A DNA stretch of 64,000 nucleotides, taken from positions 28,353,501-28,417,500 of the forward strand of contig NC_088921.1 of the NCBI RefSeq assembly GCF_038396675.1, in the 5' to 3' direction. Numbering within the stretch: the first letter of the stretch is position 1; every line of letters begins with the position of its first letter. The translations under genes were made by a program, and so were the position numbers. The DNA is from Hydra vulgaris. Its lineage: Eukaryota > Cnidaria > Hydrozoa > Anthoathecata > Hydridae. The notes under the pieces were generated by a model. That model did no database searches. It was not told the DNA's origin and saw only the letters and a program-made list of their open reading frames with translations. Below, in pieces: positions 3,548-30,437 of the stretch.

Positions 3548-3584
3548 TTTTTAATTAATCTAAATCTAAAAAAAATAAAAAAAA

Positions 3585-5664: not shown

Positions 5665-5748
5665 CAAAAAACTTGTTTTTTTAATCTCTCTCTTTTCCTA
5701 TATAAAGGGTGAAAAAAACAAAACACTAGTTCATTTGTGAAAGAGAAA
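5665..5748 (+). promoter_or_regulatory. TATA promoter sharing an upstream motif with the gene at 4896
   Basis: TATATAAAGG lies at 5699-5708, about 40 nt before the ATG at 5749. Just upstream is CTTGTTTTTTTAATCTCTCTCTTTT (about 5670-5697), almost the same as the element before the TATA box at 4838. Both promoters also have AGTTCATTT shortly downstream of the TATA box. Confidence 0.65.
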
Positions 5749-6693: not shown

Positions 6694-6709
6694 ACAAGAC
6701 AATTTTTTT

Positions 6710-7432
6710 TTATTTTTTATTTTTTTCCATATCAAAAAGTTGATATACAAGATTATTTATTTTAAATATATTTTCAAAACATTCACAAGTGTCTTTTTTT
6801 AATATGTAAATACATTGAATGTTGTCTTTTATAAATTTAATAAAATTAAAATATTCATCGTCATAAACGTTGCCATTTATTGTAAATCCGTTTACATAAT
6901 CTTCCAAATACAATGAAAACATCAATGTTTCATATCGAGGGCAGTGATGACAAGCATTTGTTTTATCTTTGACATTTGAAAAATGTTCCAAGCATTTATC
7001 TTCGTTATTGACATACATAGGCAAAAGAGAGATTTTTGGAAAGAACCACTGATTTAAATCAAACGAGAGTATTTTAAGCTCATTTATCGCATTTAACACA
7101 TCTTTTTCCATGCAACCACCTTTATAAAATACAAAGTTTCGTTCATATTTTGAAAATTTTTCTTTTAAATAATCGATCACAGATGCGCAAAATATGATTT
7201 CACTTGTGTATTTAAAACTAGGATAGTACTCTAACCCATGTATGTTGTTTTGACAGTAAAAAAATACTTTTTTATATTTTTCATCTAATTTGTGATAATT
7301 AACACACGGAATGACTTGCGTGTGAAAATATGTTTTATCACCGATGGATCGTAAACACAATTCTCTAACACAATTTTTTCCCCACTGATGTCGTTCAGTG
7401 TTGGTTATAAATTCCAAATCTAACAACCACAA
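6710..7432 (-). CDS. Possible DEDD-type exonuclease, last exon
   Basis: 240 codons open, without an ATG at the 5' end: the frame begins right after a strong acceptor (TTTTTTTTTCTAG), so the start codon must come from another exon or leader. The first residues read WLLDLEF, a D-x-E like motif I of DnaQ-fold 3'-5' exonucleases. A Lys-Asp pair near residue 110 (GCMEKDVL) could be motif II, and CHHCPRYE near residue 165 gives H-x(4)-E in place of the usual H-x(4)-D. This fits an exonuclease, but the last acidic residue is unusual and the assignment is tentative. It is on the strand opposite its neighbours. Confidence 0.55.
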   Translation of the reverse strand: MWLLDLEFITNTERHQWGKNCVRELCLRSIGDKTYFHTQVIPCVNYHKLDEKYKKVFFYCQNNIHGLEYYPSFKYTSEIIFCASVIDYLKEKFSKYERNFVFYKGGCMEKDVLNAINELKILSFDLNQWFFPKISLLPMYVNNEDKCLEHFSNVKDKTNACHHCPRYETLMFSLYLEDYVNGFTINGNVYDDEYFNFIKFIKDNIQCIYILKKDTCECFENIFKINNLVYQLFDMEKNKK

Positions 7433-7498
7433 CTAGAAAAAAAAATGCTTTTTTATTAAAAAAAGAAGCGTATTCTTTTAATAAAACGAATAAAAAAG

Positions 7499-7508
7499 TA
7501 TAAAAAAA
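7499..7508 (+). promoter_or_regulatory. Putative TATA box for the 7556-9706 unit
   Basis: TATAAAAAAA about 48 nt before the ATG at 7556. It is the only clear TATA-like word between the divergent genes at 7432 and 7556. Three tightly packed rightward genes follow, so it could drive all of them. Weak evidence, since the region is very AT-rich. Confidence 0.4.
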
Positions 7509-7555
7509 CAAATTTTTTTAAAAATATTTTTTTTTTACATTTTTAATTAAAAAAA

Positions 7556-8197
7556 ATGAATCGCGTTGATAGCATCATTAAAAAAATTCACAACAATTGC
7601 GCAGTGTGCGCGCTCGATGAAGTATCTAAAAGATATAAATATTACGAACACAAGTCTGGAAATTCTTCACCTTCTTCGGATTACGTAGAAGAAGAACATT
7701 TTACAGATAAAAATTCGTTTGAATTTTTACAAAATGTACTCAAATCTAAAAGGATAACATTAAATTCTTACAGTATTGAAAAATGTTTTAAAAACAGCGA
7801 ATTTAATAATTTACTCGAAAATCCTCAACTTTGTTCTGTTCATCTCAACTACTTTGATGATTTGAAAGAAACCTATGGCGAACCTTATGTAATAGAACTC
7901 TATAAAACCAAGCTTACTCTTTTGCTGCTAGAAAGAAAAATCAAACCACCTATGATTCTAACAGAAGGCGATCAAACTGACGGTTTTGTGGATACGTTTA
8001 CTTCAAAAGTAATACCTACCATTACTTCTTTGATAAAAAAACTAGATGATGCTTTAAAAAAGAAGTCTGTTAAAAGAAACATTGAAGGAATTATAAAGGA
8101 AGGAACCGCCGATAAAAAAACTTTATTTGTTAATATATTACACGCTGTTGTAACACTATTTATTGCGAGTTTTTTTAATTTAGAAAAAGAAGAATAA
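7556..8197 (+). CDS. Unknown protein with Cys/His pairs and a C-terminal hydrophobic anchor
   Basis: 213 residues. The N-terminus has CAVC and a later CSVH, which together could hold a metal ion. The middle is charged and has a Ser-rich stretch (GNSSPSSD). Near the C-terminus about 20 hydrophobic residues (TLFVNILHAVVTLFIASFF) precede a short charged end, as in tail-anchored membrane proteins. The gene stops 7 nt before the protease gene. A T-tract/AG inside its last codons (about 8167-8180) could serve as splice acceptor for the protease message. Confidence 0.65.
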   Translation: MNRVDSIIKKIHNNCAVCALDEVSKRYKYYEHKSGNSSPSSDYVEEEHFTDKNSFEFLQNVLKSKRITLNSYSIEKCFKNSEFNNLLENPQLCSVHLNYFDDLKETYGEPYVIELYKTKLTLLLLERKIKPPMILTEGDQTDGFVDTFTSKVIPTITSLIKKLDDALKKKSVKRNIEGIIKEGTADKKTLFVNILHAVVTLFIASFFNLEKEE

Positions 8198-8204
8198 AAA
8201 AAAA

Positions 8205-9368
8205 ATGGCTACTGATGATTCTTTGTCTCGTTTTTTTAAAAATTCAGAATTTAAAAATTATTTTATAGGAATATATGCTTTTGACGAACTAAGTCAAACA
8301 AAAACACACATTCATATTATTCAACAAATGAAAAAAAATGGTTCCTTTATCATTTACAACAATGAAACTACAAAAGACGCAGGTCAACATTGGAGAGTGT
8401 TGATGAAAATAGACAAGGGTCATTTTTTTTGTTTTGATAGTTTAGGTGAAGAAAGTGTATTGCAACAAATTCCAATTCATTTAAGATTTAATAAATATTT
8501 GTTTGAAGCAGTAGAAGAAGTGAATAGCAATATACAAATCAACACGATTAACATTAACTACAACGAAATTGAAATTAATTCTTATATACGACAATCCAAT
8601 CATTTTCCTACAGAATGGACAGCAGAAAATCGTGAATTTTATTGGTTTACCAAATTTATTTTAAAATATAGCGAAATTACTGGTAATCAAAATGTATTTT
8701 TTTCATACAATAAATTTCCTTTTCAATGGAATGATAGTAGTTTATGTGGTGCATTTGCCGCTTATTTTGTAGCTCTAGTCTTTCGCAGCGAAAATGTATT
8801 ATATACAGATCAAATATATTTACCTTCGTTGTGCAGACTGTTAAACCATTATTTTTTTGAAGTAACAACGCTTCATGCCTCTTCACTAGTTCAAATAAAT
8901 CTTTATTCATTTTTTCAGTTTATTAAACACGAACTCTTTCCACACCTTGATAACACTGCTAAACAACTGTTTGAAAAAGACATGCAGTTGCATTTTTATA
9001 TGAAAAAACAGGAAAATCTGGAACGTGATCTTTTGTCTATGAAAACAAAACAAATTCCTTTACATTATGATATTTACGAAAAACAATTATTAGCTCAAAA
9101 TGCTGCTAAAAGATTTTTAAAAGATGCAGGATTCTTAAGAACAAATTATGAAGGTACGTGGGGTAAGTTATCCCTATTGGATATTCAAGCCATTCCAGCT
9201 GTGATGAACGAGGAAAACATTTATTACATGATGCAAAATGAAATGGATAGAATTTACGCAAACAATTATACGCGATTAAAGACTGCCAATCAATTTTTAG
9301 ATGTACCTATTGATGATGTCATGACTAAAAAAGAAATAAAAAGGCAGATTGCTCTGAATTTAATATAA
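8205..9368 (+). CDS. Adenain-like cysteine protease (C5 family type)
   Basis: Predicted to cleave virion precursor proteins at Gly-Gly or Gly-X-Gly sites during maturation. The 387-residue product has the adenain order of active-site residues in its N-terminal half: His62 (GQHW), Asp78 (CFDSLG), Gln174 for the oxyanion hole and Cys181 (SSLCGAF). The spacings match the family: 16 residues from His to the acid and exactly 7 from Gln to Cys. Asp replaces the Glu of human adenovirus adenain, as in many ULP1-like relatives. The chain is nearly twice the adenovirus length; the C-terminal half has no recognised domain. Such proteases occur in adenoviruses, Polintons/adintoviruses and adomaviruses. 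Confidence 0.85.
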   Translation: MATDDSLSRFFKNSEFKNYFIGIYAFDELSQTKTHIHIIQQMKKNGSFIIYNNETTKDAGQHWRVLMKIDKGHFFCFDSLGEESVLQQIPIHLRFNKYLFEAVEEVNSNIQINTININYNEIEINSYIRQSNHFPTEWTAENREFYWFTKFILKYSEITGNQNVFFSYNKFPFQWNDSSLCGAFAAYFVALVFRSENVLYTDQIYLPSLCRLLNHYFFEVTTLHASSLVQINLYSFFQFIKHELFPHLDNTAKQLFEKDMQLHFYMKKQENLERDLLSMKTKQIPLHYDIYEKQLLAQNAAKRFLKDAGFLRTNYEGTWGKLSLLDIQAIPAVMNEENIYYMMQNEMDRIYANNYTRLKTANQFLDVPIDDVMTKKEIKRQIALNLI

Positions 9369-9373
9369 ACAGA

Positions 9374-9706
9374 ATGAAGAGAACAGCACACACGCTATTA
9401 GAAGAAATCGTAGAAGAAAAATGCACCACGTGCAACGGATATGGTGAACTGTTTTTCGTTGTTTTAAAAGAAAAAAAAAATCAACATTTGTTAAAAAACT
9501 GCACTATCCACGTTGTAAATCAAGAAGTATGGATTTTTAATACTGTTACCAAAAGATCTGCAAAAATACATCTTTATAAAATAAATTGTTTAACTTGCAA
9601 AGGAAAAAAAACTATTCTAATAAAACGATATAAAAAGAAACGAGAACAAGAAAAAAGAAACAATTTGTTATATGTACATATTTATTCATTTAATGAATTA
9701 ATATAA
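9374..9706 (+). CDS. Small zinc-ribbon protein with DnaJ-like CxxCxG motifs
   Basis: 110 residues starting 5 nt after the protease stop, so it is probably read from the same transcript family. Two half-sites are visible, CTTCNGYGE (residues 17-25) and CLTCKGKKT (about 74-82). They resemble the CxxCxGxG repeats of the DnaJ zinc centre and probably bind one zinc ion. The C-terminal third is strongly basic (KRYKKKREQEKRNN), which suits nucleic-acid contact. There is no J domain, so it is not a co-chaperone. Specific role unknown. Confidence 0.65.
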   Translation: MKRTAHTLLEEIVEEKCTTCNGYGELFFVVLKEKKNQHLLKNCTIHVVNQEVWIFNTVTKRSAKIHLYKINCLTCKGKKTILIKRYKKKREQEKRNNLLYVHIYSFNELI

Positions 9707-9724
9707 TATTTTACAACTTTTTTT

Positions 9725-9979
9725 TTAATATACTTCAAACACTTTATCCGGAGGCATATAAGGGTTGGCAGGTTTTGTAACAACAGGAACAGGAGGCGTT
9801 TTTGTTTTTTTGCCTTTCCACGCTTTTTTTATACTGTATAACAGCGAACCCACTTGCAATGCGTTAGTTACATTTTTAGGCGTGATAAAATCGGCTAATC
9901 CTCTTCCTCTTCTGCGTATTCTCTTTCTATGACTTTTACGTCTTTTTGATCTCAAATATCTTTTTCGCTTAAAAGCCAT
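9725..9979 (-). CDS. Small basic virion-like protein (core/minor capsid type)
   Basis: 84 residues from ATG 9979; the open frame before it has only a TTG. The N-terminal 30 residues are almost all Arg/Lys (FKRKRYLRSKRRKSHRKR), followed by RRRGRGL and a moderately hydrophobic helix (NALQVGSLLYSIKKAW), then a Pro-rich end. This design resembles adenovirus core peptides such as protein X/mu and similar Polinton proteins. The relation is by composition and layout, not by clear homology. Its 5' end overlaps the 3' end of the gene at 9952 by 28 bp. Confidence 0.65.
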   Translation of the reverse strand: MAFKRKRYLRSKRRKSHRKRIRRRGRGLADFITPKNVTNALQVGSLLYSIKKAWKGKKTKTPPVPVVTKPANPYMPPDKVFEVY

Positions 9980-10293
9980 TTTTGTTGACAATGCTCAACA
10001 TAAACTAAAAAATGTTTCAAAGGAAGTTTAAAAGTTTCAAAAGGAACTTCTTCATATATAAACTCAATAATAAATTCATCGTTGAAACGTGTTACTTTAA
10101 TAATTATTCCCCGTTGGTAATGATGCGTCAATGAAAAATCACCCTTTGCTTTACTATTTGTTTTAAACAGTGAAATATAAAAATCTTGTAATTTTGCAAA
10201 CGTTAATTTTGCAAACCTCTCTAAATAATCATTCATTTTTTTATGTCTGCTTCTTCGAGTTAATTTTGCAAAGCTCTCTAAATAATCATTCAT
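9952..10293 (-). CDS. Unknown protein, paralogue of the gene at 10290, with duplicated N-terminus
   Basis: 113 residues from ATG 10293. A direct repeat of about 54 bp (10214-10317) doubles the segment MNDYLExFAKLTRRSRHKK at the N-terminus. The rest (GDF...IIIKVTRFNDEFIIEFIYEE) aligns by eye with the gene upstream at 10290-10589 (IKVTRDNNKAHIEFFYGE), so this is a tandem gene duplication. The ATG overlaps the stop of that gene (ATGA arrangement). The repeat copied the junction itself, including that gene's tail, now read in another frame. Function unknown. Confidence 0.6.
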   Translation of the reverse strand: MNDYLESFAKLTRRSRHKKMNDYLERFAKLTFAKLQDFYISLFKTNSKAKGDFSLTHHYQRGIIIKVTRFNDEFIIEFIYEEVPFETFKLPLKHFLVYVEHCQQKWLLSEKDI

Positions 10294-10317
10294 TCTTTTA
10301 TGTCTGCTTCTTCGAGT
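10214..10317. repeat. Tandem duplication of about 54 bp across a gene junction
   Basis: Two near-identical copies containing TCATTC/TTTTTTATGTCTGC and the CTTCGAGTT-TTGCAAA blocks lie end to end. Each copy holds the tail of the upstream gene and the start region of the next one, so the duplication happened at the overlapping stop/start. Confidence 0.75.
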
Positions 10318-10589
10318 TGCCAAACATTAAATGTCTCTTTAATAACATCAACAAAGTCTTCATAATTCATTTCAAATGTGGAACAAATGTGGTTGATTTC
10401 ACCATAAAAAAATTCAATATGGGCTTTATTATTATCACGAGTTACTTTGATTTGTTTACTTGCATCCAAACGAAATACTAATTTAAAATCGCCTTTAACA
10501 TGTTTTAAAATATCGCTAGCTTCAAACTTGGAAGCTTCTACATTCATAACTGTGTTATAAAATTCGTTTAAACAAGTTTTAAACTCCAT
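10290..10589 (-). CDS. Unknown 99-residue protein, paralogue of the gene at 9952
   Basis: Starts at ATG 10589; the frame upstream only offers TTG. A TATA-like word (CTATAAATTT on the minus strand, about 10670) lies about 80 nt upstream. The sequence is mixed alpha/beta with the shared IKVTR...IEFFYGE core. It ends LEEADIKE and its stop overlaps the next start. No recognised family. Confidence 0.6.
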   Translation of the reverse strand: MEFKTCLNEFYNTVMNVEASKFEASDILKHVKGDFKLVFRLDASKQIKVTRDNNKAHIEFFYGEINHICSTFEMNYEDFVDVIKETFNVWQLEEADIKE

Positions 10590-10717
10590 TTTTTTTTTTT
10601 GTTTATTTTCAAATGAATATTTTTTCTTCAAATGAATTTTTTTTATTTCAAAACAAACAAATTTATAGTACTTTTTTTAAAAAAAAACAGAAAATACACT
10701 ATCAAATATTTTTTTTA

Positions 10718-11152
10718 TCAATATATTTTTGGTATTTTATTACCAATATAAAAAACACCGTCATATACATGTGATATGCTATATATTTTATTTATAATAT
10801 CAAAATCTAATATAAATCCACCAAAAAAAGTAGATGTTTTTGTGTGTCCATTTTCTTTATCTCCGCTGATAATTTCAACAACACCGTTTTCATATTCGTA
10901 CGTAAGAATATAATCGCCATAAGCACTTGTGTCTGTACGTAAATTTTTGAGCTTTTGACTCTGTTTTTCATTATCTTTCAATAACCAAAGACACTCTTTA
11001 ATATTTTCTTCAACATAATCTCGAAATTTTTGCACAAAACATTTGTCACAATATTTTTTAATGTGACTTTTTCTTTTGGCGTGTTTACACACTATTGAAT
11101 TCATTTTCTTTTGTAAATGAACGTTTTTACAGAATTGAGCTATTTTATACAT
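10718..11152 (-). CDS. Unknown protein with N-terminal Cys/His/Lys cluster
   Basis: 144 residues from ATG 11152. The first 45 residues contain CKHAKRKSHIKKYCDKC, a basic stretch with three Cys and two His that may bind zinc and nucleic acid. The C-terminal part has the same beta-rich flavour as the paralogue pair to its left (GDYILTYEYENGVVEIISGD), so it may be a longer, distant member of that group. There is no T-tract acceptor directly before the ATG. Confidence 0.6.
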   Translation of the reverse strand: MYKIAQFCKNVHLQKKMNSIVCKHAKRKSHIKKYCDKCFVQKFRDYVEENIKECLWLLKDNEKQSQKLKNLRTDTSAYGDYILTYEYENGVVEIISGDKENGHTKTSTFFGGFILDFDIINKIYSISHVYDGVFYIGNKIPKIY

Positions 11153-11166
11153 GTTTTTTAATCCGA

Positions 11167-11370
11167 TTAAACTATAGTTTTAAACAAATCACCAATTAAA
11201 GGAATACCTCCTAATAGGTTGCCAAGAAAACCTTTACCACGCTTTCTATAACTACGTTTTCGTCCTTTACCAATTAAAGAATGATAAGGTCTAGGATTAG
11301 GTTTCGATTTTCGATGAACAAAAATATATCTTTTAGCATTTCTATGCCCTCTATGTCTTCTATGTCTCAT
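11167..11370 (-). CDS. Basic protein with hydrophobic C-terminus and adenain-type cleavage sites
   Basis: 67 residues from ATG 11370. The first 55 are dominated by Arg, His and Lys (MRHRRHRGHRNAKR). The end (GFLGNLLGGIPLIGDLFKTIV) is an amphipathic or membrane-active-looking helix. Two stretches fit the published adenain consensus: LIGK before G (M/I/L-x-G-x/G type) and LLGG before I (M/I/L-x-G-G/x type). A protease of that family is encoded nearby, so maturation cleavage is plausible. It resembles adenovirus pX/mu in composition, and its tail recalls the membrane-lytic part of protein VI. These are inferences. Confidence 0.65.
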   Translation of the reverse strand: MRHRRHRGHRNAKRYIFVHRKSKPNPRPYHSLIGKGRKRSYRKRGKGFLGNLLGGIPLIGDLFKTIV

Positions 11371-11373
11371 TTT

Positions 11374-11796
11374 TTAATAAATATTTCTGTGTTTATCGCG
11401 ATCTACTTTTGTTAAAACAAAACGATATATCGGTTTTCCTACTCGATTCATTTCGCGATTTTGTTTATTATTTATATACTTGCTTTTTGTTTTTCGATAA
11501 CACATCAGTGCTTTTCTACAATATTGACGCTTTATTTTTTTTAAATTTTTCTTAACTCTTCTACGTCTTAGAGTTCTTAGTTCTGTATTATTGGGATCAG
11601 TTAACTCGTTTTCATCAAAAGAGGTCCTATCAAAAAATTCAAAAAAAGCATCCCTATGAAAAGGCCATTTTCCATCTACTGTATATTTGGGTAATTTAGA
11701 TGTATATTTAGGTCTCAAATTGCTTTTATAAGAAGGTGTTGAAAATAAATTCCGTCTTACAATCATACGGGAAAAATCAATATCATCTGCAGCCAT
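11374..11796 (-). CDS. Basic protein with CRK...RVGK...F block, paralogue of the gene at 13310
   Basis: 140 residues from ATG 11796, first gene of the leftward basic-protein unit. The N-terminal half is mixed; the C-terminal half is strongly basic and carries C-x(5)-CYRKTKSKYINNKQNRE, then RVGKPIYRFV. The same order of residues occurs in the gene at 13310-13651 (C-x(5)-CLRRTNNRYKDNKTNRK, then RVGKRIKRWV), so the two are paralogues flanking the central non-coding region. They are probably DNA-condensing or virion core proteins. A TATA-like box lies at 11879-11870. Confidence 0.65.
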   Translation of the reverse strand: MAADDIDFSRMIVRRNLFSTPSYKSNLRPKYTSKLPKYTVDGKWPFHRDAFFEFFDRTSFDENELTDPNNTELRTLRRRRVKKNLKKIKRQYCRKALMCYRKTKSKYINNKQNREMNRVGKPIYRFVLTKVDRDKHRNIY

Positions 11797-11885
11797 TTTT
11801 GTCTTTTTTTTTAACTTTAACTTTTTTGACTTTAACTTTTTTTTGACTTTAACTTTTTTTCGACTTGTATTTTTTTATATCTTTT
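11797..11885 (-). promoter_or_regulatory. Promoter and repeated leader of the leftward basic-protein unit
   Basis: On the minus strand TATAAAAAAA (11879-11870) is followed by three tandem copies of a 15-17 bp unit, AAAAAAGTTAAAGTC (about 11866-11811), and then the ATG at 11796. The repeats lie in the transcribed leader or just at the start site. Confidence 0.5.
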
Positions 11886-11908
11886 TTTTTTTTTTACAAT
11901 ATAAAAAA

Positions 11909-12118
11909 CATAGTGTCACCCTGACACAACCTTACTTATTCTGTCTTTACTTTATCTTAGTAGGCCTACTTACTTGTGTTTTTTTCTTACAGTCTTTATT
12001 TTTTTTTTATACGGCCGTATTTTTTCTTACTTACTTACTTAACCTTACTTAGTCCTTACTTAACTTACTTAGTCCTGACTTAGTCCTTAGCCTGCTTACT
12101 CACACACTCGTTCTCACA
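11909..12118. promoter_or_regulatory. Palindrome-rich part of the central non-coding region
   Basis: Contains GTGTCA-CCC-TGACAC (11913-11927), the perfect palindromes AGTAGGCCTACT (11959-11970) and ATACGGCCGTAT (12009-12020), and many CTTACTTA/CTTAGTCC short repeats (11985-12085). No coding potential. Such clustering between divergent units fits a replication origin or enhancer; neither can be shown from sequence alone. Confidence 0.45.
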
Positions 12119-12119
12119 T

Positions 12120-12453
12120 CACTAATTCTTTCGAGTTAGTGTTTTCACTCGACACACTCACTAATTCTTTCGAGTTAGTGTTTTCACATTGAACTTTCTA
12201 TACTTTCTAGACGCACTCACTAATTCTTTCGAGTTAGTGTTTTCACATTGAACTTTCTATACTTTCTAGACGCACTCACTAATTCTTTCGAGTTAGTGTT
12301 TTCACATTGAACTTTCTATACTTTCTAGACGCACTCACTAATTCTTTCGAGTTAGTGTTTTCACATTGAACTTTCTATACTTTCTAGACGCACTCACTAA
12401 TTCTTTCGAGTTAGTGTTTTTACATTAAACTTTCTATACTTTCTACTACCCTC
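12120..12453. repeat. Hairpin repeated six times, mostly in a 59-bp tandem array
   Basis: The hairpin CACTAATTC-TTTC-GAGTTAGTG starts at 12120, 12159, 12218, 12277, 12336 and 12395. The last five are spaced exactly 59 bp apart with an almost unchanged linker (TTTTCACATTGAAC...TAGACGCACT). On the plus strand the stem has nine pairs, one of them T-G, closing a four-base loop. On the minus strand that position is a C-A mismatch and the loop becomes GAAA. The copies hardly differ, so they are recent or kept alike by recombination. Confidence 0.9.
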
Positions 12454-12538
12454 AACGAGAATCGAACCCACGACGGTCTAATGGCATGGCGTTTGAAACA
12501 TAGTGCGGCGAGCGAATGCACTATGCTACGTCGACGTA
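12450..12538 (-). ncRNA. tRNA-like RNA polymerase III element
   Basis: On the minus strand TAGCATAGTGC (12528-12518) matches an A box and GGTTCGATTC (12468-12459) a B box, about 50 nt apart as in tRNA genes. The 5' part folds into an 8-bp hairpin (CATAGTGC with GCACTATG). A closed acceptor stem and a standard anticodon arm could not be drawn, so this is tRNA-like or a decayed tRNA rather than a normal tRNA. The hairpin array follows directly downstream in the transcribed direction. No run of four T on the minus strand occurs until about 11908, so a Pol III transcript could extend through all six hairpins. Confidence 0.45.
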
Positions 12539-12818
12539 TTGGTTCATAAAGTTTTGAATTTATTTAACATGTTGTTTTAACACTTATCACAGAGTTTTTT
12601 TCTTCGCAGTGTTTTTAAAAAGTTGTTTACTCCGTATTTTAATCTTTTTAATCTTGTTCATAAAAGCGTTATTATAACTTTCTAAATTTAACTAACATGA
12701 CACAGCATTTTCTTTTCATTGAATAAAGTTGCATCACTTTAGCTTTTATTTCGCGTTAATCTGTAGAGATTAAATTTTATACATAAAAAGCGTGTTTTTT
12801 TTGTTAACAAAATCAAAA
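12539..12818 (+). promoter_or_regulatory. Promoter region of the rightward arm
   Basis: Non-coding, AT-rich. A weak TATA-like stretch TATACATAAAAAG (12778-12790) lies about 30-40 nt before the first ATG of the right arm at 12819. No acceptor-type T-tract/AG precedes that ATG, consistent with its being the first gene of a transcript. Confidence 0.4.
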
Positions 12819-13304
12819 ATGACAAAAACATTAACAAAACGTTCGATTAAAAAAACAAAATATTTTTTTAACGATGAAGTCGTCGGAAAAGAAATAAATT
12901 TTAAAGAAAACGAACTATCTTTAGAAGAAGAACCAGAAATCATAAGCGATGACGATTCGGTTATAATAATAGAAGATGAAGACGCAATATTGGATTTTAA
13001 TATTTTTATAAACGACCCAGACAAAATAGACTTTGTCGTAAAAAATCAAACTGTTGAACCTCCAAAAGAAAAAGAAACCTCCTCTGAAAAAGAAATAGAC
13101 GAAGCTCCATTAGAATTTGCAGAAGCACCGGTCAACAAAATAAAAGTTTGTTTTTTAATATTTTTTACACTTTTTCATTATTTCTTTTCTTTACACATAA
13201 GATTTTTTTATATATTTTTTTAGAAAAAAAGCAAGTCATATAAACGACGCAATGCTATAAGAAAACTAAATTATTTAATAAAAAGAAATGTTTACAATTT
13301 GTAA
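12819..13304 (+). CDS. Acidic protein with basic C-terminus, two exons
   Basis: Coding parts are 12819-13145 and 13224-13304, joined across a 78-bp intron (GT at 13146, T-rich tract, AG at 13222-13223), in phase 0. Without splicing the frame runs into a hydrophobic nonsense tail. Exon 1 is highly acidic (EEEPEIISDDDSVIIIEDED) apart from a basic start. Exon 2 adds a short, strongly basic tail (KKSKSYKRRNAIRK). Total 135 residues. Opposite charges at the two ends suggest a chaperone-like or packaging-related role, but no family is recognised. It converges on the gene at 13310 with a 5-bp gap. Confidence 0.65.
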
Positions 13305-13309
13305 ATATA

Positions 13310-13651
13310 TTATTTTTGTCTATTTTTTCGTCGTATATTTGCTTCTTTTAATTGATGTTTAATATCGACATAGGATTCAGCAGTATGAACCCAACGTTTT
13401 ATTCTTTTGCCAACTCTTCCAAGTTTACGATTTGTTTTATTATCTTTATATCTGTTATTTGTTCTTCGTAAACACGATAATATTCTTTTACAATTGCTCG
13501 GTAAATACTGATTTTCAGTCTGTGTCGATGTTGAACTTTGTTTTCTACTTGTTTGTGTTTGAACTGCTTTTTTTGTTCTAGGAACTGTTGTTTTTGTACG
13601 TGCCATATTGACAGTGTTTAATGATCTAGGAGTATACCTTATTTTAGGCAT
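13310..13651 (-). CDS. Basic protein, paralogue of the gene at 11374
   Basis: 113 residues from ATG 13651. The N-terminal half is Thr/Ser/Gln-rich and probably disordered. The C-terminal half is basic and carries the same C-x(5)-C, N-x-K-x-N-R, RVGK, W/F layout as the gene at 11374. It is the only leftward gene inside the right arm. Likely nucleic-acid binding. Function not established. Confidence 0.65.
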   Translation of the reverse strand: MPKIRYTPRSLNTVNMARTKTTVPRTKKAVQTQTSRKQSSTSTQTENQYLPSNCKRILSCLRRTNNRYKDNKTNRKLGRVGKRIKRWVHTAESYVDIKHQLKEANIRRKNRQK

Positions 13652-13747
13652 TTTATAAAAAAAATGATATTTATAACTATTTATAATTATTACAATAAAA
13701 TAAAGAGTATTTATTTCTAAATAAACCTATTTTTTTTAGTTTTAATA

Positions 13748-14369
13748 ATGAGATATATAACAATAAACAATATAAAATATGAAGTGTTTAGCGATACTAT
13801 CAACGATCAATTTTTCATTATTCAAAATGAAAAAAAAAAACCCATCAGTCTAGTATTTCCATACGACGCAAAAAGAGGTAATTGTTTTTTATGGTTTTTT
13901 TTCATTTTTATAAGAAAAATTATTATTTTTTAAAATACTATTTTTTTTCTAGAAAAAGAAATGCAAAAACTTAGAGACTTTAAAAACTTTGTCAGACAAA
14001 ATTTTGTAGATGAAACAAGATTTTCTCGCACTCGTCGTAAGTTTTTTTTAACTTTACTATTTTTTCTTATTAAAAAAATTCATTTTTTAAAAAAATATTT
14101 TCTTTTTTTAGATAATCCCTATCCACGTTCACCACCATCACCATCACTACTATCGCCACTATCACCACTATCACCACGTTCGCCACCACAAACACCACCA
14201 GAACCCAATAGGGAAGTAGGTCCTTCTCACTGGGACTACTCTCCTCGTAAGTTAAACTTGAACCTTTTTTTTATTTTATTAAAAAGTATAAATATTTTTT
14301 AATATCCCCTTTGTCTGTTTTTTTTTAGAGAGTCCAGATCCTGAAAATACAGAAAGCGAAATTTTATGA
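13748..14369 (+). CDS. Four-exon protein with Ser-Pro-rich segment
   Basis: Exons 13748-13877, 13953-14036, 14112-14246 and 14329-14369, all joined in phase 1 across introns of 75-82 bp. Donors are GTAATT, GTAAGT and GTAAGT; each acceptor is a T-tract ending in AG. The 129-residue product begins as a small beta-rich domain (MRYITINNIKYEVF), then a basic helix, then a third exon made mostly of SP and PPxxP steps, and a short acidic end. The SP sites could be kinase targets and the PxxP stretches SH3 ligands. The first ATG follows TTTTTTTTAG-TTTTAATA. No family recognised. Confidence 0.65.
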
Positions 14370-14632
14370 GCTTTTGTATATATTTTTTTATAGAAAAAAA
14401 TTTTTTTTTAGTTGTTATTACTATTTTGTTATTACTATTATATATATATATACATTACTATTTTTTTTGTTATTACTATTTTAATATTTGTCGTTTTTGT
14501 TAAATTTAAAATTAAAAAAGTATTAATTTTTTCTTTATATTTTTTTTGCTTATTTGAATTTTTACATTTTTTATTACAATATTTTTTAATACAATAGAAT
14601 TTTACATCATTTTTTAATACAATAGAAAAAAA
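14370..14632. other. T-rich spacer with acceptor
   Basis: Low-complexity T-rich sequence with a short TATATATA run (about 14440). It holds no supported gene and ends in an acceptor-like AATACAATAG ten nucleotides before the next ATG. Confidence 0.5.
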
Positions 14633-14923
14633 ATGTACAAACAAATAATAAATACAATTTCAAAACAATTAAATCACCATTGGAAACAATTAGCGATTGA
14701 TCTACACTTTAAAAGACACATTATTAAAAAAATTGACGTGAATTATATAAAAAACTTTGACAAAATTAAAAAAATTTTAATTCTTTATTTAACGCAACAC
14801 AAAGATAAAAAAAGAGCTTTAAATCATTTATATTATGTAATAACAAGATGGGAAATTGAAACCGACAAGCAAGAACTTTTATTTAATTTATTACAATGTA
14901 AATTAGTTTTATTTAATATTTAA
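14633..14923 (+). CDS. Death-domain protein 1
   Basis: 96 residues, essentially one death domain. The pattern is that of the FADD/MyD88-type fold: a Trp and Leu-Ala pair in helix 2 (HHWKQLAIDL), two Ile of helix 3 (IIKKI), a tyrosine-containing turn, a hydrophobic helix 4 and a final L-x-x-V-I-x-R-W-E helix. Death domains pair with each other to recruit kinases or caspases downstream of TNF and Toll receptors. A stand-alone viral copy would most simply act as a decoy. The identity rests on pattern, not on alignment. Acceptor AG lies 10 nt before the ATG. Confidence 0.6.
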   Translation: MYKQIINTISKQLNHHWKQLAIDLHFKRHIIKKIDVNYIKNFDKIKKILILYLTQHKDKKRALNHLYYVITRWEIETDKQELLFNLLQCKLVLFNI

Positions 14924-14950
14924 TGTTTTTATATTTTTTAGCATAAAATA

Positions 14951-15265
14951 ATGAATTTTACACGATTAAAACTAAAAATAGCACAACATTTACAAACACA
15001 TTGGCAAACGTTAGCCGAATATCTGGACTACAAAAACCGTGATATCGTATGCATACAAACTGATTATCGTGATACTAACGAAAGAATGATGAGACTTTTA
15101 AATTTAATTTATCAAAGAAAAGGAACCGAATTCGAAGCAGCTCGTGCTTTATATGATGCGTTATGGACATGGTCAGTTGACATGACAACAAAACAAAATA
15201 ATTTAGAACTATTAAAAAATATAGAAGAAACTATGAAAATAATTGAAAACTATATATTACAATAA
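14951..15265 (+). CDS. Death-domain protein 2
   Basis: 104 residues. The match to the death-domain pattern is better than in its neighbour: HWQTLAEYLDY for helix 2, DIVCIQTDY for helix 3, an ER-x(3)-LL helix 4 and an A-x-x-L-x-x-AL helix 5, then a short C-terminal helix. It is closest in layout to the FADD death domain. The two genes are adjacent, equal in size and similar in order of residues, so they arose by duplication. The ATG follows TTTTTTAG-CATAAAATA. Likely an intracellular adaptor mimic. Confidence 0.7.
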   Translation: MNFTRLKLKIAQHLQTHWQTLAEYLDYKNRDIVCIQTDYRDTNERMMRLLNLIYQRKGTEFEAARALYDALWTWSVDMTTKQNNLELLKNIEETMKIIENYILQ

Positions 15266-15327
15266 TTTTTTTATAATTTTTTTGTAATTTTTTTATTTTT
15301 TTTAGCAAACTAATATATTTAAAAAAA

Positions 15328-15763
15328 ATGAAACAATACGTCAAAAAATGTGGATGGTAAGTTTTGTCATTTGTTTTTTCTTTGTTTTTTTTTTATAATT
15401 TTTTTATATTTTTTTCTTTTTTTTCTTTTTAGTTATGTAGATTATATTAACAAAGAGAGTCTTTGCTATCACGAGTTGTTATTGACAAAAGAAGAAGAAC
15501 AAGATTTGGAAGAACTTATGGAAATGGAAGAATTAACAGAGGAAGATTATGAAAAATATTTAGTTCAATTAGTACAAGAAATGGAAGAAGAAGAATCAGA
15601 TGATATTGAAGAACTTAAATTACAAATGTTGGAAGAAGAAATGGAAAAAGAAGTGGAAGAAATAGAAAAAGAAATGCATGAAATCTTAGATGAAATGGAT
15701 TGGGAACAATACGTTATAGACGTTATGAATAAAATGGACAACTTACCAGAGCTTTATTTATAA
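15328..15763 (+). CDS. Glu-rich coiled-coil protein, two exons
   Basis: Exons 15328-15356 and 15433-15763, with a 76-bp intron (GTAAGT...TTTTTAG), in phase 2. The first exon carries the ATG after TTTAG-CAAACTAATATATTTAAAAAAA. The second could otherwise be misread from a start inside the intron. The 119-residue protein starts basic with a few Cys, then is dominated by Glu with heptad-like Leu/Met spacing (residues about 35-105), and ends WEQYVIDVMNKMDNL. A long acidic coiled coil is expected; partner unknown. Confidence 0.65.
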
Positions 15764-15884
15764 TTTTTTATTTATAAATATATCTTTTTTTTAGTCAAAT
15801 AAAATAACAAGCATCACTTTTTAAATAATAAACTCGACAACAAGAACACCATGGTTTGAAATTGCTTTTTATCATAAACTTTTT

Positions 15885-16017
15885 ATCGTATTGCAGCATA
15901 AGACGAACTGTTGTAATAAAATGAGATCACTTTATTTTGTAATTTTTTTTCATCGTATTGCATCATAAGACGAACTGTTGTAATAAAATGAGATCACTTT
16001 ATTTTGTAATTTTTTTT
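15885..16017. repeat. 67-bp tandem duplication in a non-coding gap
   Basis: Two copies, offset by 67 bp, of a unit beginning ATCGTATTGCA and containing CATAAGACGAACTG and AAAATGAGATCACTTTA differ at about one base. They lie in the 278-bp gap between genes, before a T-tract/AG acceptor. No ORF. Could be leader, transcription signal or an RNA element. Confidence 0.8.
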
Positions 16018-16041
16018 CTTTTTTTTTAGACAACTAAAAAA

Positions 16042-16245
16042 ATGAATAATAATGATGATTATGAAGATATGTTTCCTGGGTTTGGTGATTATTTAAACGA
16101 AGAAGAAAAAGAAATAGAAAATATAACTTTTAACAATATATTTGAAGAAGAAGAAGAATTTATTGAAAAGAACCTTATTTATATTTTTATTCTTTTATAT
16201 GTTTTATTGAGCAATTTTGTTTATTTATTAATTCTTTTATGTTAA
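16042..16245 (+). CDS. Small acidic single-pass membrane protein
   Basis: 67 residues from an ATG 15 nt after TTTTTTTTTAG. The first 43 residues are Asp/Glu/Asn-rich. The last 23 form one hydrophobic helix (IYIFILLYVLLSNFVYLLILL). No signal peptide, so probably tail-anchored with the acidic part in the cytosol. Function unknown. Confidence 0.55.
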   Translation: MNNNDDYEDMFPGFGDYLNEEEKEIENITFNNIFEEEEEFIEKNLIYIFILLYVLLSNFVYLLILLC

Positions 16246-16316
16246 AAAAGACATGTATATTTTTTTATATTTTTTTATATAAATAAATGTTTTTTTTTCA
16301 GCAACTAATAAAAAAA

Positions 16317-17357
16317 ATGTCAGCCAACATATATCCTTGCTGTTTTTGCGACAAAGAATTTAGTGCAAAAGAACTTTTACAGCATCAAGCAGATTGTTCT
16401 ACAGAACAATACTCCCACGAATGTTTCACCTGTAAAAAAAAGGTACAAGATTTGTTAAACCACGAATGTGATTACGAATTTCTAGATATACAAAAAATAT
16501 GTTTTTTTTGTAATACCAAAATCGATGATCAAGATTATTATGAGCACTCTGTCATCTGCTTTCAATATTATAAAGAGCAACAAAATCGTTATTTGAACCA
16601 AGTCGTTCAAGACGAAAAGAAAAATTTAAATTATTTGAATCTTTCTATGAATCAAATCATGATTAAAATGAAGAGTCTTCAAGAAAAAGAAATTAAAAAT
16701 CTAAAAGAAGAAAACGACAAACTTCAACAAACTCTAGCAAAAACGAACCAAGAAATGGCAGAATTAAAAAGTCTCTGTTATGACAACATGTTGGTTTTAG
16801 CAAATCAACAAGATACAGAACATCTCAAACAAGAAATAACAAAACTTTATCATATTGCAGAAGAAAATAGCACAGAATTCTTAGCTTTAAAAAATTCCAT
16901 TCAACAACCTAAAGAAGTCAAGGTAATTCAACACGTTTTTAAAGACACGCAATTGATCAAACTCGATCAAATGAATCTCAGACTGTTATCAGATGAAACA
17001 TTTTATTCAGAACCCATTTACACATCAGAAGGATACCGTTATCGAATAAAAGTGTATACACGAAGTACCGTCATCAACAATCTAGCCATTTACTTTCAAT
17101 TGTTAAGAGGTGACTTGGACGATGGTTTACAATGGCCTTTTACCAAAAATGTTAATATCACCTTGAGAAATAAAGAACAATTTTTTACTCGTACTACTAC
17201 CAACAATAATTATCTTCAACTTTTAGACGACAGTTCATTTGATAAACCTACCACTGAATATAATGTGGCTGTTGGTTATAAGAATTTTATTTCACACGAA
17301 GAACTAAAACCATTTATTATTAACAATAATTTATTTATTACGATTAGTATACAATAA
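16317..17357 (+). CDS. TRAF-like signalling protein: zinc fingers, coiled coil, MATH domain
   Basis: 346 residues from ATG 16317, right after an acceptor (TTTTTTTTTCAG-CAACTAATAAAAA). The in-frame ATG at 16287 lies before that acceptor and is not used in the spliced message. Three CxxC...H...C fingers lie at about 8-27, 36-51 and 62-81, a coiled coil at about 95-195, and a TRAF-C/MATH domain at about 205-346. Diagnostic pieces of the latter are FYSEPIYTSEGYRYRIKVY, the LRGDLDD-x-LQWPF stretch and SSFDKP. Cellular TRAFs trimerise through this region and bind receptor tails. There is no RING, so it cannot act as a ubiquitin ligase, as with TRAF1, and could block signalling. It is clearly of cellular origin. 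Confidence 0.9.
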   Translation: MSANIYPCCFCDKEFSAKELLQHQADCSTEQYSHECFTCKKKVQDLLNHECDYEFLDIQKICFFCNTKIDDQDYYEHSVICFQYYKEQQNRYLNQVVQDEKKNLNYLNLSMNQIMIKMKSLQEKEIKNLKEENDKLQQTLAKTNQEMAELKSLCYDNMLVLANQQDTEHLKQEITKLYHIAEENSTEFLALKNSIQQPKEVKVIQHVFKDTQLIKLDQMNLRLLSDETFYSEPIYTSEGYRYRIKVYTRSTVINNLAIYFQLLRGDLDDGLQWPFTKNVNITLRNKEQFFTRTTTNNNYLQLLDDSSFDKPTTEYNVAVGYKNFISHEELKPFIINNNLFITISIQ

Positions 17358-17467
17358 CATATTTTATGTAAAAAAATGTATTTATCCTATTTTTTAAAAT
17401 GTTTTTTTTTGTACTTTATCTAACATTATTAACCCTTATTTTTTTTTAGATTAACTAATAAAAAAAA

Positions 17468-17887
17468 ATGAATACCATTGATATATTCAGAGAAATTAGT
17501 TTGGAACTAACAACCAACAACGTGCAATCTATCAAATTCTTACTCAGAATACCATTAGGAATCAAACAAACTTTAAAAAATGGTTTGGATATGATAGAAT
17601 ACTTTAAAGATCATACTATTCAAAGTGAACATGGTCATCTTTACGAATCATTAGAAAGTAAATTGGAATATCTACTTGTATTATGTAAAACAATTCATCG
17701 AAATGATATTTTCAACAAATACAAAAATAAAATACCACGTCTTCCTAGTTACGAAGAATGCGTTGTTAATAATCCACCTGTATATGCATATCCAAGTGCA
17801 GTTGTAGAAGCAAAACAACAAGAACTATTTCATTTATATAATCCAAAACCAGCTAAAGCACCTGAATGTGCACAAGAATTCATTTAA
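17468..17887 (+). CDS. Death-effector-domain protein with PPxY motif
   Basis: 139 residues. The first 90 follow the death-effector-domain pattern of FADD, caspase-8 and viral FLIPs: an initial IFREISLEL helix, then SIKFLL, a GLDMIEYF helix and the final LEYLLVLCKTIHRNDIF helix with its R-x-D. The tail is Pro-rich and contains PPVY, a PPxY motif of the kind bound by WW domains of NEDD4-family ligases. The gene lies next to the TRAF-like gene and 2.5 kb from the death-domain pair. A single-DED protein could interrupt FADD/caspase-8-type assembly. Assignment is by pattern. Confidence 0.65.
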   Translation: MNTIDIFREISLELTTNNVQSIKFLLRIPLGIKQTLKNGLDMIEYFKDHTIQSEHGHLYESLESKLEYLLVLCKTIHRNDIFNKYKNKIPRLPSYEECVVNNPPVYAYPSAVVEAKQQELFHLYNPKPAKAPECAQEFI

Positions 17888-17914
17888 CTCTTTTTTTTTT
17901 AGGAAAAAAAATTT

Positions 17915-17991
17915 TTTACTTGTATAACTTTTTTTACTTGTATTAACTTTTTTTACTTGTATAACTTTTTTTACTTGTATTAACTCCATTT
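17915..17991. repeat. Four-copy T-rich tandem repeat
   Basis: A unit of 20-21 bp, AACTTTTTTTACTTGTAT(T), occurs four times in the gap after the gene at 17468, just before the next acceptor. It may be slippage in an acceptor-rich spacer. Confidence 0.8.
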
Positions 17992-18031
17992 GTAAACTTT
18001 TTTTTTTTTTTTAGACAACTAATTAAAAATA

Positions 18032-18772
18032 ATGGGAAGCAACTGGGGAAATATTAGAAGAATACTTGATAAAGAAGAAATTACACTTCGTCACTTTTTA
18101 CAAAGACTTCATCAACAAATGGCACGAGAAAAAAAGTTTATAGAAATAGACAAAGAAACAAGAAAAGCTAGTCATTATTTAGAATTCAACATTCTTTCTT
18201 ATATTAAAAACTTTGAAAAACAAACAGTCATCTGGTTTAGTCCAGAAGAACGTCATTTTTCTTATTATCAATTTATTTTCGACAGTTTTAGTTTGAATCA
18301 CTTTAACAGATTTACCCGTGAAATTCAATCACAACTTAGCTTGAAAGATTTGTGCAAAAGAACTTTGGCTTATCGACGAATTTATTTAGAATTTCAAGAG
18401 TTGCAAAAGAAAATTATTTCTTTATTTGATAAAACCAAACTACCACATAGCAAATGGAAAGATAAAGATAATATTCGTTTGTTATTTTACAGCTTTCATT
18501 CCATTGTTGATTTTGAATTTGATTCCTATTTTAATATTTTTAATAATCGTTTATTATTTTTTAATCTTCAAAGAGAATATCTTTACAAATTATTTCATAT
18601 ACTTTTCACAGAAATATCTTATTTTGCTGATCCAAATAAACAACTGGAAATACATTTAATACGAAAATTATATCGTTTAATCATGGAATATATAAATTGG
18701 TCACAACAACAATATTTTTATACTATTGAACCTTGTTTTATTCATTTTCAAATTGTAAAACACTATTTTTAA
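18032..18772 (+). CDS. Unknown protein, long member of the LKDLCKR paralogue pair
   Basis: 246 residues; ATG in the normal acceptor context. Helical, aromatic-rich and basic. The block LKDLCKRTLAYRRIYLEFQEL (residues about 108-128) is nearly repeated in the next gene, and both end in a helix with W-x-x-Q-Q-Y and an IHF/VHY motif. The first 100 residues are absent from the shorter paralogue. No known fold. Given the neighbours it may be another host-interaction protein. Confidence 0.65.
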   Translation: MGSNWGNIRRILDKEEITLRHFLQRLHQQMAREKKFIEIDKETRKASHYLEFNILSYIKNFEKQTVIWFSPEERHFSYYQFIFDSFSLNHFNRFTREIQSQLSLKDLCKRTLAYRRIYLEFQELQKKIISLFDKTKLPHSKWKDKDNIRLLFYSFHSIVDFEFDSYFNIFNNRLLFFNLQREYLYKLFHILFTEISYFADPNKQLEIHLIRKLYRLIMEYINWSQQQYFYTIEPCFIHFQIVKHYF

Positions 18773-18810
18773 TTTTTTTTAATTTTTTTTTTAGTTAACT
18801 AATAAAAAAA

Positions 18811-19281
18811 ATGCAAAGAAGTAAGCACTTTTATGAATACGACATTATCCACATTGTGAATTGGTTTACATCCGAAACAAAAAATAACATGGATGTAGAC
18901 TTGAAAACGTTAAAAGATTTGTGTAAAAGAAAATTGGCATATAGAAGAATTAAAATCGAATTTGAATTATTAAAAGAACAGCTTGGAAATTTATATATTT
19001 ATGATGATGAAAACAAATCTTTTTATATTTGTGACTTTTCTTATGATTACGACATTAGTTGTTTATTAAATCATAATTCATTTTATTGGGTACAAAGAAA
19101 AATTATATATCCTTTATACGAAATGTTTAGATCGCACTATAATAATCGTTATATTAAAAATGAACAACTTGATTTTTTTTATAATTGTATTAGAAAATAC
19201 ATTCAATGGGCAATAGATCAATATTATTATATTCGTGAAAATAATTTTGTACATTATAATGATATCATTTTATATTTATAG
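18811..19281 (+). CDS. Unknown protein, short member of the LKDLCKR paralogue pair
   Basis: 156 residues, co-directional with its longer paralogue and 38 bp after it. It shares LKDLCKRKLAYRRIKIEFELL and the C-terminal WAIDQYYY region. Its stop codon TAG (19279-19281) is at the same time the acceptor AG for the next gene, so the two messages touch without a gap. Confidence 0.65.
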   Translation: MQRSKHFYEYDIIHIVNWFTSETKNNMDVDLKTLKDLCKRKLAYRRIKIEFELLKEQLGNLYIYDDENKSFYICDFSYDYDISCLLNHNSFYWVQRKIIYPLYEMFRSHYNNRYIKNEQLDFFYNCIRKYIQWAIDQYYYIRENNFVHYNDIILYL

Positions 19282-19298
19282 ACAAACTAATAAAAAAA

Positions 19299-19556
19299 AT
19301 GAAATACGGTTACAGCAAAAGAAAGCCAAACAAAAAAGTGAAAAAACAAATGAAAGGTATATTTTTTTTCTGTATTTATTTTTATCATTAAAATTTTTTA
19401 TTAATTCTATTTTTTTGTTTTTTTACAGCCATGTATGCCTACTATTTTACAATAAATAAACATTCGTTAAACCACTCAGATACAATTAACCGAAGATACT
19501 TTTGTATTAAACAATGTGGCGTATGTCAAGCGTGCTACTTGAAAAAAAATGATTAA
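19299..19556 (+). CDS. Small basic/Cys-rich protein, two exons
   Basis: Exons 19299-19356 and 19429-19556 with a 72-bp intron (GTATAT...TTTTACAG), in phase 1. The ATG follows the AG at 19281 and an ACAAACTAATAAAAA leader. Exon 1 codes for a Lys-rich start (SKRKPNKKVKKQMK). Exon 2 ends with CIKQCGVCQACY, four Cys in ten residues. 61 residues in all. The Cys group looks metal-binding; the basic start could be a nuclear or nucleic-acid-binding signal. Function unknown. Confidence 0.6.
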
Positions 19557-19710
19557 CTTTTTTATACAGAAATATATATTTTATTGCATATTTGTGTCTT
19601 TTTTTTTTATTGTATATTAATGTCTTTTTTTTATTCTTTATTTTTTTACTTTTTTATAACAATTTCTATTTTTTTCTAACATTCTTTTTCTTTAGATATA
19701 AATAAAAAAA

Positions 19711-19923
19711 ATGAATTCAAATGAAAACTGGGAAGATGATCTCACTGATTCCACATTCGAGCTACCACCACCAAATATAAAATTTAAAAAAATGAATGCG
19801 AAATTAAAAGGATTAGCCTTCGAGAAATGCTTGGAAGACGAGCTAGAAAAAATAAACATTAATAAGAAAAAAACTTCTATAAACGAATATATAAAAGCGA
19901 ACTTTTCTATTCACAAATCATAA
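19711..19923 (+). CDS. Unknown 70-residue protein
   Basis: The ATG follows TTTCTTTAG-ATATAAATAAAAA. Acidic at the N-terminus (NENWEDDLTDS), then a short Pro stretch and a Lys-rich helical remainder. No motif recognised. Intact ORF in the same register of acceptors as its neighbours. Confidence 0.5.
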   Translation: MNSNENWEDDLTDSTFELPPPNIKFKKMNAKLKGLAFEKCLEDELEKININKKKTSINEYIKANFSIHKS

Positions 19924-20024
19924 ACTTTTTTTAATTGAAATTTTTTATTGTACTTTTTTTATTAACATTTTTTTTTGTACAACTATTTTTATAAATAAAA
20001 ATTTTTTTTTAGCTAACTAATACA

Positions 20025-20255
20025 ATGTGTGGAAATCGCAATTGTACTGTCAAAAACACAATCCAATTAACTGGTGAAGAACTGATATTTGTCTTGATGT
20101 CTGCAGAAAAATATCAAAAATCATTTTTTGAAGAACTCGACATTTATAATCATTATGTCACCATCGGAAAACAATATTATCCAAACATGACATTTGAAAA
20201 CTTTGTCAAAGAAAAATATCCTATTTTCAGAGAAAAAAATAAATCAATATTGTAA
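20025..20255 (+). CDS. Unknown 76-residue protein, last viral gene
   Basis: The ATG follows TTTTTTTTTAG-CTAACTAATACA. It starts MCGNRNC and continues as charged helices with FENFVKEKYPIF at the end. No known family. It is the last gene before the junction with the chromosome and converges on BCS1L. Confidence 0.55.
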   Translation: MCGNRNCTVKNTIQLTGEELIFVLMSAEKYQKSFFEELDIYNHYVTIGKQYYPNMTFENFVKEKYPIFREKNKSIL

Positions 20256-20421
20256 CATTTTTTAACTGTAACAGTTTTTATAAAATAAAAAATTTTTTTG
20301 ACACCTGATCTTTTTTTTGCGCGCATGCGCCACCTTTTTTTTTTTTTGAGACCGGGAAATTTTCATCACTTTCATTCGGTTTATTTCAACTTTTTTTTAC
20401 ACGGGCCGCGGTTTTAACGTT
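20256..20421. other. Virus/host junction region
   Basis: 166 bp between the last viral gene and the BCS1L stop codon. It differs from both sides in having GC-rich islands: GCGCATGCGC (perfect palindrome inside GCGCGCATGCGCC, about 20318-20330), GAGACCGGGAAA and ACACGGGCCGCGG. TTTTTTTACACGGGCCG (about 20395-20408) and TTTTTTACACGGTCGG (20425-20440) are similar words spaced about 30 bp apart, the second inside the BCS1L reading frame. A viral terminal repeat could lie here, but its partner end is outside the window. Confidence 0.4.

Positions 20422-30437
<10,016 letters not shown>

Follow-up and report, generated by a model that had tools for sequence, protein, structure and literature searches.

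Viruses, mostly those of vertebrates, are known to mimic individual components of death pathways; examples are poxvirus MC159 and the gammaherpesvirus vFLIPs, tandem death-effector-domain (DED) proteins that are aimed at FADD and caspase-8. Mobile elements of the polinton (Maverick) type typically generate a 6-bp target-site duplication (TSD), and are usually about half the size of the 42.4-kb element that we describe here from the cnidarian Hydra vulgaris, the right-hand part of which opens a window of 64,000 nucleotides (the whole stretch of DNA that was analyzed, C2:28353501-28417500 on contig NC_088921.1; genome searched 911.5 Mb in 15 contigs). This element encodes two lone death domains, a RING-less TRAF and a DED protein. 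The initial annotation knew of no such set in any one DNA virus, and our literature search likewise found no paper with these parts together, and none tying polintons to death domains, with the limit on novelty that the adintovirus accessory-gene list lay outside the search. Most mammal-associated adintoviruses (Eupolintoviridae in the NCBI taxonomy) apparently encode anti-apoptotic homologues, according to one adintovirus paper (PMC11071296). The megalocytivirus ISKNV also bears a TRAF with a coiled coil and a MATH domain, ORF111L, but this protein has an N-terminal RING (PMC3352826), whereas none was matched in the Hydra TRAF. Finally, the planarian Burro giant retrotransposons resemble our element in being mobile and in carrying MATH_TRAF_C and dUTPase-like domains (Burro also has BIR and BCL2-like domains); they are nevertheless Gypsy-type retroelements with a giant polyprotein and not polintons, and the word ‘death’ is absent from the text of the paper that describes them (PMC6431247).

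The four open reading frames (ORFs) begin where the initial annotation had placed them (14633, 14951, 16317 and 17468), and together span 3.3 kb. Death-domain ORFs 1 and 2 (DD1, 14633..14923, plus strand, 96 aa; DD2, 14951..15265, plus strand, 104 aa) both exceed the Pfam Death cut-off of 22.6 bits, with 25.7 bits (E 1.3e-5) and 33.4 bits (E 4.9e-8) respectively, which bears out the two predicted death domains; in the same scan the other six right-arm ORFs gave nothing above cut-off. The RING-less TRAF (16317..17357, plus strand) has 346 aa if translation starts with the ATG of position 16317, against 356 aa for the mechanical ORF, which begins at 16287; it consists of a Cys/His-rich N-terminus (by eye), a long coiled coil and a MATH domain (Pfam TRAF-mep_MATH 68.3 bits, E 1.1e-18, cut-off 27.4). 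As annotated, it has no Pfam match to a RING, a domain that is also missing from the N-terminus of TRAF1. The fourth ORF (17468..17887, plus strand, 139 aa) encodes the DED protein, with C-terminal LPSY and PPVY motifs.

Like polintons and adintoviruses, the element that contains these ORFs possesses terminal inverted repeats, a 6-bp TSD, an rve integrase and, judging from motifs read by eye, a PolB-like ORF; unlike them it is 42.4 kb long and carries a death-receptor adaptor cassette, and its capsid was not confirmed here. Blastn and alignment placed terminal inverted repeats at both ends of a 42,432-bp element, of which the right-hand 20.5 kb (1..20494) lie in the window and the left end lies outside it at C2:28331563. 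The outermost 70 bp of the right repeat (20289..20494) match the left end (L011:8063-8132) without a difference, and an inner 88 bp are 89% alike. The adjoining AATGCG (20495..20500; like the repeat and the element itself, assigned no strand) recurs at the left end, this duplication being seen for the window copy only. The insertion site is an exon of the mitochondrial chaperone BCS1 (20422-20742, minus strand, together with the left flank in L011; right-flank exon PDB match E 8e-19), the C-terminal codons of which are split by the element; since the joined flanks translate into a stop, the element sits within the last codons of the host exon.

Beyond the left edge of the window the element encodes the rve integrase (28.7 bits, E 1.7e-6), many genomic copies of which keep open frames, together with a PIF1 helicase (E 3.5e-35) and an ORF of 1965 aa whose sole Pfam match is Endonuclease_7 and which we take to be PolB-like from DTDS and FDCET polymerase motifs noticed by eye. 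Inside the window the same element encodes a dUTPase (4114..4587, minus strand; Pfam E 1.6e-22). Three left-arm ORFs scanned as possible hexon or penton capsid genes (1048, 711 and 230 aa) matched nothing in Pfam; two further ORFs, one of 450 aa and one ATPase-like, lie at the edges of L010 and L009, respectively. ORF 8205 resembles adenain protease in its motifs, an assignment that is presumptive and was not confirmed, given no match in Pfam or PHROGs and just a chance thrombin match (E 0.99) in the PDB. Searches of PHROGs with seven element proteins, of phage records with DD2, and of IMG/VR with the TRAF, DED, FADD-like (see below), DD2 and 8205 proteins returned no match. We infer an integrated, recently mobile element of polinton/adintovirus type. 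The ‘viral cassette’ of the initial annotation thus stands as far as a viral-type element in a cnidarian is concerned, but its status as a DNA virus would be a further step, no capsid gene having been confirmed.

The element moved recently, as is evident from unchanged proteins at ten loci and from sampled copies that share one end and differ in their flanks. All four cassette proteins are 100% identical at no fewer than 10 loci on five contigs (one on C2, two on C3, four on C10, one on C14 and two on C15), and among the three of seven loci in register two (L004 and L006) equal L002 across all 4,038 bases and the third (L005) has one difference; the remaining four, which lie on the opposite strand or carry indels, stayed out of register and yield no meaningful difference counts. 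The right end was sampled at 7 of the 9 other loci, and in all 7 it falls on the same terminal-repeat base with flanks unlike those of the window, so that each represents an insertion of its own; L091 and L096, two of the 7, are embedded in TA repeats, and the 45 bases shown barely separate one from the other. Copy numbers genome-wide are at least 149 for the TRAF (117 of 798 candidates scored), 97 for the integrase (97 of 802), 150 for DD2 (150 of 551), 150 for DD1 (150 of 499) and 151 for the DED (150 of 361).

MATH, DED and death domains are combined in three element families; outside the window family (family 1) this rests on four loci that were read, a single one in family 2 and three in family 3. 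Family 2 (L073, C8:8694001-8699000) keeps the window order of a basic marker protein, a death-domain-like ORF, a TRAF (34% identity to the window; MATH 56.7 bits), a DED (39% identity) and two ‘LCKRK’ proteins. An integrase with 68-71% identity lies some 26 kb from at least 5 of 7 DED copies in the score class of L073 (30.9 bits), L073 itself not being one of those five among the integrase matches listed. In family 3 (L074, L076 and L071) a death domain, which scores 37.6 bits in L074, precedes a single ORF that joins a DED (53.4 bits in L074, 51.6 in L076) to a death domain (39.8 and 44.6 bits); in L071 the frame of this DED-DD ORF is shortened. The best PDB match of this FADD-like ORF is full-length human FADD (E 7.5e-8), aligned in a single stretch over 9-146 with the DED preceding the death domain; it differs from human FADD in being element-encoded, at 170-175 aa, and was not found in the window family. 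L077, the adjoining piece left of L074, carries on the other strand a MATH ORF (54.4 bits), a DED ORF, a dUTPase and two pieces resembling the PolB-like ORF (identity 31.6% across 342 aa with E 3e-42, and 23.9% across 176 aa). No integrase was found near family 3 loci among the matches listed (97 of 802 candidates scored). Since the set persists in other families, one of which has a FADD-like DED-DD protein in addition, the case is stronger than the initial annotation had made it. With regard to location, DED matches of FADD-like score were seen on C3 (two), C8 (two), C11, C12 and C14, and 6 of these 7 lie no more than about 1.5 Mb from the end of their contig (length of C12 not seen; 3 of the 7 loci read), because of which family 3 may favor subtelomeric sites.

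In contrast to the tandem DEDs of vFLIPs, the window family has one DED with a PPxY tail, and family 3 has the DED-DD arrangement. The window ORF scores 29.7 bits (E 7.5e-7) against a Pfam cut-off of 35.9, and its relatives fall on both sides of that value (L073 32.2, L075 30.9, L077 38.0). L073 is related to L077 with E 2.6e-6 and the window to L077 with E 1.2e-4, and a profile of the element DEDs aligned to six host-like DEDs with 83% probability (hhalign; E 8.4e-6, 74 columns), compared with E 0.088 and 6 columns for a control alignment to element death domains. Here ‘host-like’ denotes that, of the 20 DED loci cut out, 19 have none of the eight tried element proteins within 1.5 kb, cross-hits of the FADD-like DED aside. 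Because of its relatives L073 and L077, the score of L077 above the cut-off and the hhalign result, the window ORF can be regarded as a probable homologue of cellular DEDs, and the annotated ‘DED with PPxY’ is upheld: PPVY is present in the window and in L075, though not in L073. The RxDL motif of DED helix 6 reads RNDI in the window and RTDL in L073. A homologue search with the DED ORF found none, and the branches of the DED tree are too long for it to be used on origin. Single DED ORFs are also numerous on C1, C2 and C14, mainly in the first 20 Mb; the tried element genes were absent within 1.5 kb of the 19 such loci that were cut, and these ORFs may represent an expansion of DED genes in the host.

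For the TRAF, a profile search of the PDB gave TRAF3 (3.4e-17), TRAF5 (1.2e-16) and fish TRAF4 (7ypc, 5.7e-14), followed further down by TRAF2 (9.5e-12), human TRAF4 (4.9e-8) and lastly TRAF6 (1.2e-5), so that TRAF3 and TRAF5 appear nearest, in a type assignment that is not sharply resolved. The stretch SSFDKPTTEYNVAVG aligns opposite SSFKKPTGEMNIASG of TRAF3 (SSF..P), which contains serines that contact receptor peptides. Structure prediction, proposed as a check by the initial annotation, led to a recognizable fold for this protein and not for the DED: although the AlphaFold model is of low confidence (pLDDT 59, pTM 0.36; helices 71-162 and 167-195 forming the coiled coil ahead of the MATH domain), its fold search returned TRAFs in 48 of the 50 rows printed (TRAF5 at 1.6e-8) and meprin in the other 2. 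A genome MATH scan (150 of 542 candidates scored) set 12 host-like matches apart at 88-146 bits from element copies below 80 bits, and in the ten of these 12 that were compared identity to the element MATH domain is at most 32%. The phylogeny also proposed as a check gave a partial answer. In the MATH tree, family 1 and family 2 TRAFs form a group with P0028 (bootstrap 96), whose position among host-like MATH domains the tree does not resolve. Owing to the low identity and this unresolved placement, the capture is probably old. At least 10 matches of TRAF type are accompanied, roughly 10-19 kb off and on the opposite strand, by another MATH match that differs from the first (among them C13:44254410, C2:12860786, C6:339727, C2:16132003, C5:21955319 and C1:73194067); the two that were read are mutually identical, and none occurs in the scanned left-arm ORFs of the window.

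A profile of five element death domains, dominated by family 3 sequences, is nearest in the PDB to RIPK1 (1e-8), followed by THOC1, ankyrin and FADD, and the L074 death domain alone matched RIPK1 at 0.005. MyD88 and IRAK are not among the 26 PDB matches of this profile to E 1, and no TIR domain was matched in the 27 window ORFs scanned. The initial annotation had the cassette cover consecutive steps of TNF-receptor, MyD88, FADD and caspase-8 signaling; the TNF-receptor/FADD-type part of this claim is retained, but Toll/MyD88 mimicry was rejected as the principal reading for want of any TIR domain or MyD88/IRAK match. A TRAF nearest to TRAF3/TRAF5, a death-domain profile nearest to RIPK1 and the absence of MyD88/IRAK from the matches together point to the TNF-receptor arm as the likely target.

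Purifying selection acts on the open copies of the cassette. By the Nei-Gojobori method, and using pairs with dS above 0.05 for the death domains, median dN/dS was 0.335 for DD1 (46 of 46 usable pairs below 1, from 11 distinct open copies) and 0.404 for DD2 (88 of 88 pairs, 15 open copies). Comparison of the window with L075 gave 0.29 for the TRAF and 0.28 for the DED, and with L073 0.38 and 0.39, the L073 pairs being affected by saturation (dS about 1.5); the FADD-like ORF gave 0.32 between L074 and L076.

On balance we lean towards the reading that a polinton/adintovirus-type element carries a conserved death-receptor adaptor cassette, the products of which would act as decoys in the TNF-receptor/RIPK1/FADD/TRAF pathway. 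Known dominant-negative adaptors have the form of single adaptor domains that lack RING and caspase parts. We infer a decoy mechanism, with its binding partners and direction of effect, in which the cassette proteins would be expressed during element activity and, as adaptors without output parts, would block TNF-receptor complexes. The RING-less TRAF would trimerize and fill receptor tails with no ubiquitin-ligase output. Two kinds of assembly would be capped, death-domain assemblies of RIPK1/FADD type by the lone death domains and DED filaments of FADD/caspase-8 type by the DED protein, whose PPxY/LPxY tail would perhaps recruit a NEDD4-family ligase. The outcome would be an infected cell that neither dies nor raises alarm while the element replicates.

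Several observations count against this decoy reading. The window DED and the integrase both score under their Pfam cut-offs (35.9 and 32.6 bits), as does the weak death domain of L073 (15.8 bits, E 0.015), and capsid and protease genes lacked confirmation in searches of the scanned element ORFs. The AlphaFold model of the DED, from a single sequence, is poor (pLDDT 48), its fold search gave 15 chance matches up to E 10 and is unusable, and the element DED profile matched no DED in the PDB to E 1. DD2 alone found no death domain in the PDB ahead of THOC1 (E 0.11) and ankyrin (E 0.15). The dN/dS values come from open, near-complete copies alone (of 30 loci for the death domains) and lean low because just such copies entered, and one accessory ORF, the LCKRK protein at 18032, gave 0.85. 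Finally, FADD and TRAF are able to promote death as well, as in the first of the rival explanations.

In that explanation the cassette would set off caspase-8-type death late in the cycle, for particle release or element spread, which we regard as unlikely. Family 3 retains the whole DED-DD architecture of FADD, which by mammalian precedent can activate, but the window family lacks both a RING and a caspase domain and has its DED and death domains on separate ORFs. What makes this the main rival is the fish iridovirus TRAF: ISKNV ORF111L binds TRADD and induces caspase-8 apoptosis (PMC3352826), so that a virus TRAF with such an effect exists, and this too tells against decoys.

Somewhat less probable again is that the proteins drive TNFR/NF-kB survival or proliferation signaling in favor of carrier-cell growth. 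Such NF-kB-type signaling is stimulated by the KSHV vFLIP, and a MATH domain nearest to TRAF3/TRAF5 with an aligned SSF..P stretch would suit this alternative, as would a death-domain profile nearest to RIPK1; against it, the four ORFs contain no RING and no kinase domain. Lastly, that these are TRAF, DED and death-domain genes of the host, either beside a transposon or carried along without function, is very improbable despite the NCBI naming of 25 of 28 TRAF relatives as Hydra TRAF 2-, 3- or 5-like, for the ORFs lie inside the terminal inverted repeats (which rules out adjoining host genes), move with the element, occur in three diverged families, reach at best 32% MATH identity to the ten host-like domains compared, and are under purifying selection in open copies.

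Around the decoy candidates, the accessory arm starts with a basic protein (KLGRVGK; 13310..13651, minus strand) that is 57.5% identical over 80 aa to L073:754-1023, and also holds two paralogous LCKRK proteins (18032..18772 and 18811..19281, both plus strand; blastp E 5.7e-15), the first mostly helical by inspection. LCKR-type motif proteins are clear in family 2 (E 2.5e-7) and weak in family 3 (E 0.003-0.007; L074 and L076), and a homologue search with ORF 18032 found none. An acceptor-like pyrimidine tract plus AG lies within 45 bases upstream of 8 of 11 picked right-arm ORF starts versus 20 of 116 other ATGs, and an AACTAAT..ATG string recurs, with seven occurrences in the right arm, four in L075 and none in L073, L074 or L076. 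These acceptor-like signals and the recurrent string before ORF starts suggest that the accessory genes may be made by adenovirus-like alternative splicing. By eye, the ORFs at 12819 and 13748-14302 continue across short GT-AG introns. Between the leftward and rightward gene blocks, an array of 4-5 tandem copies of a 59-bp unit (12089-12445) shows an inverted repeat by eye and is perhaps a shared promoter or origin. A tRNA-like stretch (12440-12545, minus strand) with a B-box-like GGTTCGATTC noticed by eye was discarded, as ARAGORN, Rfam and folding gave no support.

All 28 named TRAF relatives (P0001-P0028) are Hydra vulgaris proteins, with identity of up to 94%, and NCBI names 25 of them Hydra TNF receptor-associated factor 2-, 3- or 5-like. 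We place slightly better than even odds on a co-maintained, multi-part module that hits the TNF-receptor pathway at successive steps, through its TRAF, its RIPK1/FADD-type death domains, its DED and, in one family, a whole viral FADD, and so identifies this pathway as part of cnidarian antiviral defence, and on part, perhaps most, of the Hydra TRAF-like gene models being element genes. In corals, TNF-induced apoptosis and a FADD-binding caspase-8 are already known (PMC4979521). Antiviral death signaling through this pathway may be ancient, as the initial annotation had proposed. If true, the cassette would offer a cnidarian test of extrinsic death signaling as an antiviral defence, by way of an early-branching animal with laboratory genetics. 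Hydra TRAF-like gene models can be element genes, and because 25 of the 28 relatives bear host-like TRAF names, surveys of cnidarian TRAFs may count such genes among those of the host.

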